DNA from: Aeromicrobium erythreum
Lineage (GTDB): Bacteria; Actinomycetota; Actinomycetes; Propionibacteriales; Nocardioidaceae
Reading direction: 5' to 3'
NCBI RefSeq assembly: GCF_001509405.1
Contig: NZ_CP011502.1
Span: 2,108,001-2,172,000, forward strand
DNA length: 64,000 nt
This document shows positions 30,610 through 57,236 of the stretch, in pieces (position 1 is the first letter of the stretch; each line of letters opens with the position of its first letter). The translations under genes and the position numbers were made by a program. The notes below the pieces were generated by a model. That model saw nothing but the letters and a program-made list of their open reading frames with translations. It made no database searches and had not been told where the DNA came from.

Positions 30610-30629
30610 CCCCTCGGCAATCGGTGGGA

Positions 30630-30895
30630 GATTCCCAGGTGGACCTGGGAATCCGCGCCACGCATGGCTTGCTTCCCGTGCGTGGCTGAGATTTCCGTGC
30701 CTCGCTGGAGCTTCCGAGGTCGACCTCGGAATCGCTGCTACGCGCGGTGCACTTCCCGTGCCTTGCTGAGCTTCCCGTGCCCTGCGGGGAGACAACCCAG
30801 GTCGACCCGGAAATCTCAGCCACGCACGGCTTGCTCTCCGTGCGTGGCTGAGATTTCCGTGCCTCGCTGAAGATTCCCAGGTCGACCTGGGAATC
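30630..30895. repeat. Palindromic repeat array between convergent msrB and hemQ
   Basis: Two 77-base direct repeats (30657-30733 and 30819-30895, similar but not identical) each comprise a GCCACGCA/TGCGTGGC hairpin, the segment TGAGATTTCCGTGCCTCGCTG and a 24-base palindrome. A further palindrome stands at 30630-30653 (arms GATTCCCAGGT/ACCTGGGAATC), one at 30710-30733 (TTCCGAGGTC/GACCTCGGAA), a degenerate one at 30791-30815, and a perfect one at 30872-30895 centred on GGTCGACC. The array fills the intergenic space and ends five bases before the hemQ stop. It may act as a bidirectional terminator or as a REP-like element. Confidence 0.8.
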
Positions 30896-53378: not shown

Positions 53379-54287
53379 TCAGCCCGTCGCCGCGCTGCCG
53401 TAGGTGGTCACGTGCACGTGGTCGACGTGGTTGGCGGTGTCGCCACCGCGGTCGCTCATGGGCCGCCAGCTCGCGGAGGTGGCGGGCCGCCAGATGCGCT
53501 GCTCCCAGATCAGGTACTCGATGCCGAGCTCGCTGCGGTGCTCCTGCAGGAAGGCGGCGATCTCGTCGCCGAGCGGGCCGCGCACCATGATGTCGAGCGC
53601 CTGCCCGGTCGCGTGCTCGCCACGTCCGGCGATGCCGCCGTACTCGCCGACCTGGGGGAAGCGTTCGCACACGGCGCGGAACACCTTGACGGTGTCGGGC
53701 TGCAGACCGGCCTCCGACATCTTGTTGCAGGGTTGCGTCCCGAGCGGGAGGTCGTCGGCGACCTGCCGCGACGGCACCCAGCGGGGCAGGTCGGCGAGGA
53801 CCACCTCGGTCCAGCCGTCGCGGGTCCGGCCCGTGACGTCGATCTTCTGCCCGCGCTCGAGCCGCTTGAGCACCGGCGACGCGGAGTCGGCGTCGGCGTG
53901 CACGGCGACGCCGTCGTCGAGCGCGACCTGCTGGCCCTTGACGACCACCTGCACGGTGCCCTCGACGGGCAGCTCGGGACGCTCGGCGCTGCGGTTCACC
54001 TCCGGCGCCTCCTCGAAGGCCTCGGCGATGACGTCGTCCTGCACAGGTGCGGCGGCTGCGCGAGGCACCGTCGTCGGAGCGTCGGGGCCCTGGGCCTGCA
54101 CCACGGCGACAGCGGCGCCGAGCACGGCCACCACGCTCACGGCAGGGAGGACGACGGTGACGGCGCGACGCTGCCAGGACGGCGCCGCGTGACGGCTGCT
54201 GCGTCGGGCCCCGCCCGGCGTCCGCGGTCCGCTCGACCCGCGTCCGGCACGCCGCGGCACGGCGTGCTTGTGGCGCGAGGATGCCAC
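53379..54287 (-). CDS. Membrane-anchored protein with SH3-like and M15-type peptidase-like domains
   Basis: The 302-residue product has a basic N-terminus, one membrane helix (AVTVVLPAVSVVAVLGAAVAV), a bacterial SH3-like segment (ADSASPVLKRLERGQKIDVTGRTRDGWTEVVL) and a C-terminal domain with GRGEHATGQALDIMV and NHVDHVHVTTYG, an H...D...H arrangement like zinc D-Ala-D-Ala carboxypeptidases. It probably acts on or binds peptidoglycan outside the membrane. GTG 54287 is preceded by AAGGTGAT. It overlaps in transcription with coaE downstream. Confidence 0.85.
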   Translation of the reverse strand: MASSRHKHAVPRRAGRGSSGPRTPGGARRSSRHAAPSWQRRAVTVVLPAVSVVAVLGAAVAVVQAQGPDAPTTVPRAAAAPVQDDVIAEAFEEAPEVNRSAERPELPVEGTVQVVVKGQQVALDDGVAVHADADSASPVLKRLERGQKIDVTGRTRDGWTEVVLADLPRWVPSRQVADDLPLGTQPCNKMSEAGLQPDTVKVFRAVCERFPQVGEYGGIAGRGEHATGQALDIMVRGPLGDEIAAFLQEHRSELGIEYLIWEQRIWRPATSASWRPMSDRGGDTANHVDHVHVTTYGSAATG

Positions 54288-54348
54288 AGACGATCACCTT
54301 CAGGTGGTGGGGAACAGGACCGACCAACCCCTGCAGCATACTGGGCGG

Positions 54349-55689
54349 GTGGATGCGCGCGCAGGGGACGGCCCGCAGGGGCTGGAGGTCCTGACGGCGG
54401 GACGCAGCGAGCAGGACCAGCGTCGCGTGGCCGGCGCGCTGCGGGCGCGGGGCCTCGGCACGGGCGACCGGCTCGTGCTGCTGTGCCCCGGGGAGCCGGC
54501 CTACGCGAGCGTCGTGCTCGGCGCGGCACGGTCGGGCGTCGTGCCGGTGCCGCTGGACCCGCGCCTGACCGCCTGGGAGCGCGAGCGGGTCCTCGGCGAC
54601 CTCGACGCCGCCCTGGTCGTGGACGACTCGGCCGCCCTGCGGGCGCTGCTGGACGGACCCGCTGCCGACCTCGCGCCCGACCCTCTGTGCCGGCCGATGC
54701 ACTTCACGTCGGGCACGACCGGTCGGCCGAAGGGTGTGTGGTCGGGCCTGCTCGAGCCGGACGACGCCCGCGACCTCGTGGTCGAGGAGCGCGAGCTCTG
54801 GGGCTTCCGGGCCGACGACGTCGACCTCGTCGTCTCGCCGATCTACCACTCCGCTCCCCTGCGCTTCGCCACGGGCACCCTGTTGGCCGGCGGGAGCATC
54901 GCGGTGCTGCCGCACTTCGACGCGACCGCCTTCGTCGACGCCGTCGCGCAGGTCCGTCCCACGACCATGTTCTGCGTGCCGGCGCACCTACAGCGCCTGC
55001 AGCAGCACCTCGACGAGACGGGCGACGAGCCCGACCTCTCGTCGTTCCGGCTCGTGGCGCACGCCGGCGCACCGTGCCCCGAGCCCGTCCGACGCCGCGC
55101 GCACGCGCAGTTCGGCGAGCGGACCGTGTGGGAGTTCTACGGGTCGACGGAGGGACAGTGGACGGCCTGTCGCGGTGACGCGTGGCACGAGCGTCCCGGC
55201 AGCGTCGGCCGAGCCCGGCCCGGCCGGGTGGTGACGGTCGACGACGAGGACCAGCTGTGGTGCGTCGTGCCGCGCTGGGGACGCTTCACCTACTGGCGCG
55301 ACGAGGAGAAGACCGCGCAGGCCTGGCGCGACACCCCGGACGGCCCGGCGTTCACGGTCGGCGACCTGGGCCGCGTGGAGGACGGCTGGGTCTACCTCGA
55401 CGCCCGTCGCAGCGACCTCGTCATCAGCGGTGGCGTCAACGTCTACCCCGCCGAGGTCGAGGCGGCGCTGGAGGACCTGCCCGGCGTGCTCGAGGTGGCC
55501 GTGTTCGGCCGGCCGGACGAGCGGTGGGGCCAGCGGGTGGTGGCGGCCTACGTCGGCGACGCGGACGAGGAGACCCTGCGGGCGCGCGCCCTCGAGCGCC
55601 TCGCGCCGCCGAAGCGGCCCAAGGAGTACCTGCGCCTCGACGCCCTCCCCCGCACCGCCACCGGCAAGGTGCGCCGGACCGAGCTCTGA
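54349..55689 (+). CDS. AMP-forming acyl-CoA synthetase/ligase
   Basis: The 446-residue protein has the adenylate-forming motifs: FTSGTTGRPKGVWSG (P-loop-like), VWEFYGSTEGQW, TVGDLGRVEDGWVYLDARRSDLVISGGVNVYPAEVE and the C-terminal lysine in PRTATGKVRRTEL. It activates a carboxylic acid with ATP and joins it to CoA. It is shorter than usual (about 500) because the N-terminal region is trimmed. GTG 54349 is chosen (CATACT six bases upstream); the open frame extends into the divergent promoter. Substrate unknown. Confidence 0.9.
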   Translation: MDARAGDGPQGLEVLTAGRSEQDQRRVAGALRARGLGTGDRLVLLCPGEPAYASVVLGAARSGVVPVPLDPRLTAWERERVLGDLDAALVVDDSAALRALLDGPAADLAPDPLCRPMHFTSGTTGRPKGVWSGLLEPDDARDLVVEERELWGFRADDVDLVVSPIYHSAPLRFATGTLLAGGSIAVLPHFDATAFVDAVAQVRPTTMFCVPAHLQRLQQHLDETGDEPDLSSFRLVAHAGAPCPEPVRRRAHAQFGERTVWEFYGSTEGQWTACRGDAWHERPGSVGRARPGRVVTVDDEDQLWCVVPRWGRFTYWRDEEKTAQAWRDTPDGPAFTVGDLGRVEDGWVYLDARRSDLVISGGVNVYPAEVEAALEDLPGVLEVAVFGRPDERWGQRVVAAYVGDADEETLRARALERLAPPKRPKEYLRLDALPRTATGKVRRTEL

Positions 55690-55721
55690 GCTCCCCGACC
55701 CCGTCCGTCGCACCCGTCCCA

Positions 55722-55951
55722 GGATTCCCATCACCTGAGGGGAATCCTCACTCACCTGCGGTTGATCCCGCCGGTGAGTGAGGAAGAACCATGGTGAGTG
55801 CCACCAGGCGCGATGCGCTCAGGCGCATCTCGACGGGCGGACGCGACCGGCCCGCTCACCACGGTCCTCCCCCGCTCACCTCGGGAAGCATCCGCAGGTG
55901 AGCGCGGGAGAACCATGGCGAGCTGCTGATTCCCATCAAGTGATGGGAATC
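55722..55951. repeat. Palindromic repeat cluster between the ligase and the GlxA/AraC gene
   Basis: Elements in order: a GGATTCCC/GGGAATCC palindrome (55722-55747); a hairpin TCACTCACC/GGTGAGTGA (55748-55756, 55773-55781) followed by GGAAGAACCATGGTGAGTG, in which the arm is repeated; a second hairpin CGCTCACC/GGTGAGCG (55873-55880, 55897-55904) followed by GGGAGAACCATGGCGAGC; and a 24-base palindrome with 11-base arms GATTCCCATCA/TGATGGGAATC (55928-55951). The outer GATTCCC/GGGAATC arms match the array at 30630-30895, though the centres differ. The cluster fills the space between convergent genes. Confidence 0.75.
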
Positions 55952-55971: not shown

Positions 55972-56925
55972 TCAGCCCGCGTCGGCGCAGGCGAAGGTGC
56001 GGCGGAACTCCTGGGGCGTGGTGCCGAGCGCCTGGGTGAAGTGGTGGCGCAGCGTGGCGGCGTTGCCGAAGCCGACACGGGACGCCACCTGCTCCACCGA
56101 GAGCGTCGAGCCCTCGAGCAGCTGCTCGGCCAGCGCGATGCGCTGGCTGGTGAGCCACTGCAGCGGGGTGGTGCCGGTCTCGTCGCGGAAGCGCCGGGCG
56201 AAGGTGCGTGGCGACATGTGCGCGACCGCGGCGAGCCGGTCGACGGGCAGCGGCTCGTCGACGTGCTCGAGCGCCCACTCGAGCACCGGCGACAACGTCT
56301 CGGCCTCGACCTGGCCGACCGGGGTGCGCACGAACTGCGCCTGCCCGCCCGTGCGGTGCGGCGGCATGACGATGCGCCGTGCGGTGGTCGCGGCCGTGCG
56401 CGCCCCGAACACCCGCCGCACGAGGTGCAGCGAGGCGTCGATGCCGGCGGCAGAGCCGGCCCCGGTCAGCACGTTGCCGTCGAGGACGTACAGCACCTCC
56501 GGGCGCACGACCGCCGTCGGGAAGGCCTCCTGCAGCTCGGTGCCGTAGCGCCAGTGCGTCGTGCACTCCCGCCCGTCGAGCAGGCCCGCCTCGCCCAGCA
56601 GCCACGCGCCGGTGCAGTGCGCCGAGACGTAGGCACCGCGCTCCCCCGCCGCGCGGACGGCCTCGACGGCGGCCGGGTGGTGGTGGCGGTAGCCGCGCTT
56701 CGGCGCGACGCACACGAGGTCGGCGTCAGCGGTCGCGTCGAGCGAAGCCTCCACGTGCAGGTCGACGCTCGAGCCACGGACCCGCCCCGGCTCGGGCGTG
56801 CAGATCGTGAAGTCGAAGACCGGGTTGTCGTCCTCGGGGTGGTAGGGCTCGTTCCAGACCTCGCAGATGGCTCCGAGGCCGAACGCCTCGACCCCGTCCT
56901 GCACGACGACCGCGACCTTCTTCAT
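55972..56925 (-). CDS. GlxA-type regulator: DJ-1/PfpI domain plus AraC DNA-binding domain
   Basis: The 317-residue protein has an N-terminal class I glutamine-amidotransferase-like domain (VAVVVQDGVEAFGLGAICEVW, with the nucleophile-elbow Cys in YVSAHCTGAWLLGEAGLL) and a C-terminal pair of AraC helix-turn-helices (LAAVAHMSPRTFARRFRDETGTTPLQWL and QVASRVGFGNAATLRHHFTQALGTTPQEFR). Such proteins activate catabolic genes in response to small molecules. Upstream palindromes with TGCCAC/GTGGCA may be its own operators. It is divergent from a 53-residue membrane protein. Confidence 0.93.
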   Translation of the reverse strand: MKKVAVVVQDGVEAFGLGAICEVWNEPYHPEDDNPVFDFTICTPEPGRVRGSSVDLHVEASLDATADADLVCVAPKRGYRHHHPAAVEAVRAAGERGAYVSAHCTGAWLLGEAGLLDGRECTTHWRYGTELQEAFPTAVVRPEVLYVLDGNVLTGAGSAAGIDASLHLVRRVFGARTAATTARRIVMPPHRTGGQAQFVRTPVGQVEAETLSPVLEWALEHVDEPLPVDRLAAVAHMSPRTFARRFRDETGTTPLQWLTSQRIALAEQLLEGSTLSVEQVASRVGFGNAATLRHHFTQALGTTPQEFRRTFACADAG

Positions 56926-56936
56926 GGACCCAGCCT

Positions 56937-56990
56937 GCCACAGGTGTGGCGGTTTATCGAGGATGACTGGCTTTTCTGCCACTGGTGGCA
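56937..56990. promoter_or_regulatory. Two TGCCAC/GTGGCA palindromes upstream of the GlxA-type gene
   Basis: GCCAC-AGGT-GTGGC (56937-56950) and TGCCAC-TG-GTGGCA (56977-56990) are centred 40 bases apart, about four helical turns. A third half-site, TTTCTGCCA, recurs at 56974 and at 57011, the latter running into the next gene's ATG. Likely sites for the divergent regulator or another factor. Confidence 0.5.
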
Positions 56991-57018
56991 GGATCAGACG
57001 GAGACGAGACTTTCTGCC

Positions 57019-57180
57019 ATGTTCCTGTTGCTCATCCTCCTGGCCCTGTCCGCCCTCGTCATCGTCCTCGCGATCTGCGTCTCCCTCGACGGCTACGGCA
57101 GCCGTCCCGGGCCGCGCAGCCGTCCGCGCGACCCGTTCGAGCCGTCGCGGGCCGACGACCACGACCTGCCCGTCCGGTGA
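57019..57180 (+). CDS. 53-aa single-pass membrane protein
   Basis: The product starts with a hydrophobic helix (MFLLLILLALSALVIVLAI) and ends with a hydrophilic Arg/Pro/Asp-rich tail (SRPRDPFEPSRADDHDLPVR). Function unknown. The start coincides with a repeated TTTCTGCCA element that may bind the GlxA-type regulator encoded divergently. Good GC3 in the tail supports a real gene. Confidence 0.65.
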   Translation: MFLLLILLALSALVIVLAICVSLDGYGSRPGPRSRPRDPFEPSRADDHDLPVR

Positions 57181-57201
57181 CCCCGGCCCTCGCCCCGACA
57201 A

Positions 57202-57236
57202 GACGAGACCCCCGACCATCGGCCGGGGGTCTCGTC
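57202..57236. terminator. Bidirectional terminator between the 57019 gene and rpsA
   Basis: GACGAGACCCCCG (57202-57214) and CGGGGGTCTCGTC (57224-57236) form a perfect 13-bp stem with a nine-base loop, between convergent genes. Confidence 0.9.

Follow-up and report, generated by a model that had tools for sequence, protein, structure and literature searches.

Palindromic clusters between Aeromicrobium genes as probable non-autonomous ends of a small REPtron-like element with a nuclease-like protein

What is the cluster of palindromes and hairpins that lies between two genes of the Aeromicrobium erythreum chromosome, and what brought it there? We studied it within a stretch of 64,000 nucleotides (the window). 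An initial annotation had noticed a palindromic cluster at 55722-55951, and this was borne out: palindromes, hairpins and trailing arms were located at 55723-55951, where two units stand in inverted orientation, each composed of a palindrome (P), a hairpin (H) and a trailing arm (Table 1). The degenerate third arm copy of that annotation does exist as a component of this plan: it is found at 55784-55800 and in the outer parts of the right hairpin (55854-55923), and in the gene-bearing ends described below this trailing arm is the pairing partner of the palindrome's right arm. The interior spacer at 55801-55853 is possibly a remnant of the place where a gene would sit. The same annotation held that the cluster repeats the plan of an array at 30.6 kb; the palindrome, hairpin and arm are common to both, but here they form two inverted units around ~53 bp and not a linear repeat.

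Table 1. Features of the two palindromic clusters of the window and of the genes beside the second one. R1 is the covariance model described in the text; its E-values are rough.
Feature	Position in window	Strand	Remarks
Type-A unit 1 of the 30.6-kb cluster (palindrome 30630-30653)	30627-30704	+	R1 41.3 bits, E 1.7e-7
Type-A unit 2, degenerate (palindrome 30710-30733)	30707-30784	+	R1 15.9 bits, E 0.068, weak
Type-A unit 3	30797-30866	+	R1 35.6 bits, E 3.1e-6
Type-A terminal palindrome	30872-30895	+	
AMP-forming acyl-CoA ligase-like gene (by eye)	54268-55689	+	Stop just left of cluster; start uncertain
Whole left unit	55720-55798	+	R1 model positions 1-80, 33.5 bits, E 9e-6
Left type-B palindrome P (GATTCCC-N10-GGGAATC)	55723-55746	+	GATTCCCATCACCTGAGGGGAATC, imperfect
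Left hairpin H	55746-55783 (or 55745-55784)	+	17-nt arms, CCTCACTCACC...GGTGAGTGAGG
Left trailing arm (third arm of the initial annotation)	55784-55800	+	GAACCATGGTGAGTG
Interior spacer between inverted units	55801-55853	.	~53 bp; contains small hairpin GATGCGC/GCGCATC
Right unit, nested hairpin with outer trailing arms	55854-55923	-	33-nt arms, 82% complementary
R1 match to right unit	55926-55855	-	32.4 bits, E 1.6e-5
Right type-B palindrome P	55928-55951	-	GATTCCCATCAAGTGATGGGAATC
GlxA/AraC-type regulator gene (by eye), convergent	55972-57219	-	Stop just right of cluster; start uncertain

The pattern GATTCCC-N10-GGGAATC, with at most three mismatches, occurs seven times in the window against 1.52 expected, a count that none of 100 shuffles reached, and four of the seven matches are exact palindromes. 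The 246-nt cluster region folds with z-scores of -9.5 (as DNA) and -10.0 (as RNA), and none of 200 shuffles was as stable. An Rfam search of the window returned four tRNAs only and no match at the clusters.

The whole genome (G000, 3.63 Mb, one contig) contains 39 exact copies of the pattern and 42 at up to one mismatch, against 0 for the reversed control, and we retrieved 25 further stretches of it to cover its other clusters. Two families coexist in this one genome: type A, with a AGGTCGACCT core and a CACGG...CCGTG hairpin, and type B, with a ATCANNTGAT core and a CTCACC...GGTGAG hairpin. Each palindrome type is mostly paired with its own hairpin, and palindromes within a cluster are often spaced by 80 (A) or 82 (B) bases. 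The early guess of families of related elements with matched parts is supported. Palindromes with an A half and a B half exist at L065 (G000:C1:3048195-3048218) and L067 (G000:C1:3191973-3191996; ATCAGGACCT), which suggests recombination between the families. Between the first of these (G000:3048195) and a B unit at 3049413 the spacing resembles that of an element; the gene enclosed, a zinc alcohol dehydrogenase by eye, was rejected as a partner. At 30.6 kb, three units with AGGTCGACCT-type cores stand in tandem. Among close relatives the number of tandem type-A units at this site (window 30707-30784; orthologs L117, L124) is three, two and one, as if units had been lost between palindromes.

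By our simple gene caller, 14 of the 29 clusters of the genome lie between convergent genes, 12 between co-directional and 3 between divergent ones, and none inside a gene; 12 of the 57 gene junctions of the window are convergent. A position between convergent genes, as claimed at the outset for both window clusters, holds for these two but for fewer than half of the clusters genome-wide. Two further sites deserve mention. A lone ACGGTCCCGT-type palindrome at G000:C1:369872-369897, whose cognate gene was found in G026 (C137) and not in the own genome, is likely a relic. At L055 of the own genome a difference of ~800 bp beside a type-A palindrome was considered as an element gene and rejected: it is an ion-channel-like gene (by eye), present beside the palindrome in L107 and L111 and deleted right next to it here.

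A gene at G000:C1:2003272-2004252, ~104 kb to the left of the window, sits between inverted type-A units, as does its counterpart in G026 and G039. Homologs of this partner gene were detected in 41 of the 49 genus genomes, the best in G026 (94% identity), G039 (93%), G018 (68%) and G033 (51%). Five genomes carry 27-39 exact palindromes, and they are exactly the own genome and the four just named, whose homologs reach 51% identity or more; in the remaining 44 the palindromes number 0-7 and homolog identity does not exceed 43%. The sole palindrome of this pattern in G003 lies within 0.2 kb of its homolog.

We compared 49 homolog loci of the genus (the best 48 and one weaker, out of 84 rows of which the remainder were weaker and mostly partial) by aligning the 300 bp upstream of the gene locally against the 250 bp downstream, with a cut of 21.7, the 95th percentile among non-cognate pairs. 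Inverted ends that match each other enclose the gene: ends of ~80 bp matched left to right at 47 of the 49 loci, L161 (17.5) and L199 (15) falling below the cut, and all 47 pairs are inverted, in elements of 1182-1346 bp. Distal flanks of the homolog loci matched in 0 of 48 cases (maximum 17), and none of 34 ordinary genes of the window reached 22 (maximum 14). The sequence of the ends differs from genome to genome and co-varies with the protein (Mantel rho 0.494, reached in 0 of 2000 permutations, 45 of the 47 elements), a correlation that shared descent alone would also give.

Copies of the ends are scattered through the same genomes and mostly match the ends of the genome's own gene. A GGTTTMCC-N10-GGKAAACC pattern occurs in 27 of the 49 genomes, the reversed control giving 0 in every one. 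Fifty of 60 listed dispersed palindromes, from 16 genomes, are within two of ten core bases of the gene ends of their own genome; 5000 label shuffles gave a mean of 7.3 and a maximum of 34. The list behind this count runs part of the way into G033 and omits palindromes at gene ends and the genomes that have no cognate gene for theirs (G000, G005 and G013). DNA searches with the 80-bp end of the G045 element found 28 further places in G045, and with that of the G016 element 15 further places in G016. In G005, where no homolog was found at E <= 1e-5, three copies of the G016 end remain.

The structure of the end is kept through compensatory change. We aligned 32 ends from 16 elements, picked among the 47 for their clean ~80-bp ends, and the alignment is nearly free of gaps over 84 columns. 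The hairpin, extended by the right arm of P on one side and the trailing arm on the other, makes a single stem of 25 pairs, in which 80.6% of cells pair (60.7% when shuffled) and 153 cells are changed on both sides, against 58 shuffled and 37-59 in slid controls; the covariation score is 0.453, against 0.135 shuffled. Pairing in the palindrome P of the same ends is 82.2%. Since the right arm of P pairs both in the stem and in the palindrome, it has two partners, the left arm of P and the trailing arm. Selection on structure, the other reading offered by the initial annotation, is thereby supported for the gene-bearing ends. A constant tag of the GTAG/CGTC type, judged by eye, was not seen in the 32 aligned ends.

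From these 32 ends we built a covariance model (R1); none of them is type A or comes from G000, G039 or G018, and one of the elements is a second, different one of G026. R1 was run unfiltered over the whole window, and the E-values of such a model are rough. Its seven best matches, of 81, all fall inside the two clusters, the best elsewhere reaching 18.1 bits (E 0.023), and of 142 matches in the 25 other stretches of the own genome, the top 37 fall within clusters or touch them. A model made from other, gene-bearing ends therefore recovers both window clusters and further ones, and by this model the type-B units of the window belong to the end family of the nuclease-like elements. Type-A units score 40.5-49.5 against the ends that flank the own gene or its close orthologs; type-B units reach 18.5 at best with any of the 47 gene-bearing ends, short of the 21.7 cut, and no homolog of the partner gene was found at the type-B loci covered. 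Type B is an orphan family: none of the genomes searched has a cognate gene for it, and its source element was lost or lies outside the sample.

Between genomes, orthologous intergenic sites differ in having or lacking whole elements and loose units. The clearest case is a 1.23-kb insertion difference between G016 and G005: the element of G016 lies between TGA and TCAGTC, apparently two convergent stop codons, and the empty site of G005 reads TGTCCTGACTCAGTC. No target-site duplication was seen at this site, the sole clean empty one. At the site beside uvrA, which holds the partner gene in the own genome, 30 loci were compared: four (G000, G026, G039, G018) have the ~1.3-kb element, 21 have 25-125 bp, and five are different or unreadable. 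Inserts of 1051 bp (L283 in G002), 1051 bp (L277 in G044) and 661 bp (L268 in G031) were also observed at this convergent site. At the site of the window cluster G000 and G026 have both units, G039 has a lone palindrome and G018 has none in its 40-bp spacer; the other loci of the 30 comprise 11 spacers of at most 24 bp (two of them negative, from extrapolated ends), eight other inserts or longer spacers, and seven unpaired. Different repeats or hairpins occupy the spacer orthologous to 55689-55972 in L295 (G021) and L302 (G010), and this convergent spacer seems to attract several kinds of insert. Nearly all units of the own genome for which an ortholog was available are also found in the two genomes most closely related to it, which gives no hint of recent movement.

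The pairing of gene and repeats is wide in actinobacteria. Homologs at E <= 1e-10 were found in 86 of 296 Actinomycetota genomes sampled, and outside the genus the left and right flanks matched in 22 of 29 homologs against 1 of 28 controls (cut 12.5, the 95th percentile of non-cognate pairs). At a stricter score of 22, 13 of the 29 matched, five inverted and eight direct, some of these calls being ambiguous because the repeats are themselves palindromic; in Tsukamurella, direct repeats of ~78 bp flank two of three loci. R1 matched ends outside the genus weakly (best 20.9 bits, 11 loci), and it is in this genus alone that the layout is inverted throughout. An origin in phages or viruses was considered and rejected: viral contigs gave 0 exact palindromes and 0 protein relatives (51 pattern matches, none confirmed), and phage records gave 0 relatives of the partner protein. 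Plasmid records yielded four distant protein matches only, three of them in one Tsukamurella assembly. The Tsukamurella tyrosinosolvens "plasmids" NZ_LR134451.1, NZ_LR134463.1 and NZ_LR134465.1 carry, among others, tatB, pdxS and Mrp and resemble pieces of chromosome.

The partner protein has 327 residues, and its N-terminus matches AbiEi_4 (28.8 bits, cut-off 25). This domain lies in the N-terminal half of 13 of 15 aligned members, and the AbiEi models of PADLOC, with E of up to 10, pick up every one of the 15. In the C-terminal half, DUF559 was above its cut-off (26.2 bits against 20.6) in one of six distant homologs scanned, MTES_1575, described as a Vsr-type REase (PMC3710099), matched the same single homolog below its cut-off, and among 15 close homologs DUF559 gave a weak match in one (E 0.012). 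E206, D239, E250, D252 and G253 are identical in 49 of 49 homologs, and K256 in 48 of 49. From the weak Pfam matches and these invariant residues, we read E-x-D-G-x-x-K with the D residues as a putative PD-(D/E)XK-type site. AlphaFold2 on an alignment of four sequences gave a pLDDT of 39.6, and neither a profile search of PDB nor NCBIfam gave a credible match. The listed Pfam matches contain no DDE transposase family, AbiEi_4 and weak DUF559 and MTES_1575 appearing instead. An element of 1182-1346 bp has no room for an AbiEii toxin partner: it holds one gene of ~0.97 kb, with a median of 91 bp from stop to outer end. Public records label AbiEi/DUF559-type proteins as antitoxin-domain or hypothetical.

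Taken together, we regard the cluster as probably a pair of non-autonomous ends, derived from a small mobile element that resembles a REPtron but encodes an unrelated, nuclease-like protein, the movement being our deduction. The complete element is ~1.25 kb long and consists of P, H and trailing arm (~80 bp), one gene, and the same end inverted. The gene product would join an AbiEi-type winged-helix DNA-binding domain to a Vsr/DUF559-like nuclease domain of the PD-(D/E)XK type. The winged helix would recognise the folded or the duplex end, and the form that it recognises may come from the right arm of P pairing with one or other of its two partners, the left arm and the trailing arm. The nuclease domain would cut at the end, which, with or without the gene, would then be copied or transferred to spacers immediately downstream of stop codons. 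Mobilisation in trans or internal deletion may account for the loose ends. A different enzyme could also be the mobiliser of the ends. More broadly, we lean, by a small margin, towards a mobile class that spans the phylum Actinomycetota, in which one AbiEi-winged-helix/Vsr-like nuclease recognises its own folded palindrome-hairpin-arm ends and scatters them between genes, in the manner of REPs and without an HUH or DDE enzyme.

Other readings account for part of these data. Palindromic, dispersed, intergenic repeats associated with a gene of one or a few copies recall the REPtrons (PMC8266576, PMC3733652), and the initial annotation had proposed to look elsewhere in the genome for a RAYT gene; a RAYT is the mover of ordinary REP/BIME repeats. 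That expectation failed: Y1_Tnp (PF01797), the HUH tyrosine transposase (TnpAREP) domain, was found in 0 of 49 genus genomes and in 5 of 14 control genomes, which refutes a RAYT as far as PF01797 reaches, and the gene found instead, outside the window, is unrelated and its ends show by eye no GTAG-type constant tag. We give RAYT-moved repeats next to no credit; the repeats work like REPs and yet, by the enzyme test, are not REPs. That the clusters are bidirectional terminators or RNA hairpins, kept for expression of the flanking genes and never mobile, would agree with 29 of 29 clusters being intergenic and 14 convergent, with the very stable folds and with the compensatory changes; it does not explain why units are present or absent at orthologous sites, nor why the unit, in a sequence particular to each genome, recurs at numerous unrelated places and flanks one gene family on either side. 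We think it improbable, and a terminator role could be a side effect of the ends.

AbiEi antitoxins bind inverted repeats in their own promoter (PMC7319586), and with AbiEi_4 in the N-terminal half of 13 of 15 members the flanking palindromes might be operators of self-regulation plus a terminator, the dispersed copies being the regulon or binding sites of the same protein. We judge this very improbable: the matched inverted ends of ~80 bp stand on both sides of the gene, the hairpin and trailing arm are part of the dispersed copies, most of which are found beyond stop codons rather than in promoters, whole blocks of gene plus ends are absent from orthologous sites, and the median of 91 bp after the stop leaves no room for AbiEii. 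Domestication of the nuclease, which would have stopped moving the repeats long ago and now put them to use for the host (chromosome structure or repair), is a doubtful explanation that nevertheless carries some weight. The uvrA-side locus is the same in G000, G026, G039 and G018, with 68-100% protein identity, and most units are common to close relatives; elements at different loci in other species, end families specific to each genome and gene-less relic units in G005 speak against it. Domestication now and mobility at some time are not mutually exclusive.

If the elements do move by means of this protein, a kind of repeat that has no known mover in these genomes would be explained, and a class of nuclease would be added to the known ways in which DNA moves. 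AbiEi/DUF559-type proteins, if they are enzymes of mobile elements, would acquire a function for a large unexplained family. The matched pairs of protein and end from many species make recognition directly testable.

An element with palindromic ends and a DNA-binding, nuclease-like protein is apparently undescribed, and its likeness to known systems is partial in each case. With type IV toxin-antitoxin AbiE it shares the N-terminal AbiEi_4 domain and the binding of inverted repeats by AbiEi proteins (autoregulation in PMC7319586), but it has no AbiEii within the element, carries a C-terminal nuclease-like domain, and has its repeats at both ends and dispersed. Weak Pfam matches and the invariant D and E-x-D-G-x-x-K residues bring it close to the Vsr/DUF559/MTES_1575 REase-fold nucleases; searches of open-access full text found no link of AbiEi or DUF559 proteins to flanking palindromic repeats. 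Inverted ends, near-constant length, empty sites and short gene-less copies recall MITEs and IS with terminal inverted repeats, whereas here no DDE family stands among the listed matches, the one clean comparison shows no target duplication, each end is itself palindromic, and a genome has one to three diverged gene copies and not identical multiples. It also resembles REPtrons (RAYT/TnpAREP with REPs, and TIRtrons with TIRYTs; background in PMC8266576 and PMC3733652, the latter for GTAG/CGTC REPs): a gene flanked by palindromes that co-vary with the protein and are also copied into intergenic spacers, many copies past stop codons, and dimers and arrays. The element differs from them in its end, which is ~80 bp of palindrome, hairpin and trailing arm without a GTAG/CGTC tag by eye, and in its protein, which appears to combine an AbiEi-type winged helix with a Vsr/DUF559-like domain in place of the HUH Y1 transposase.
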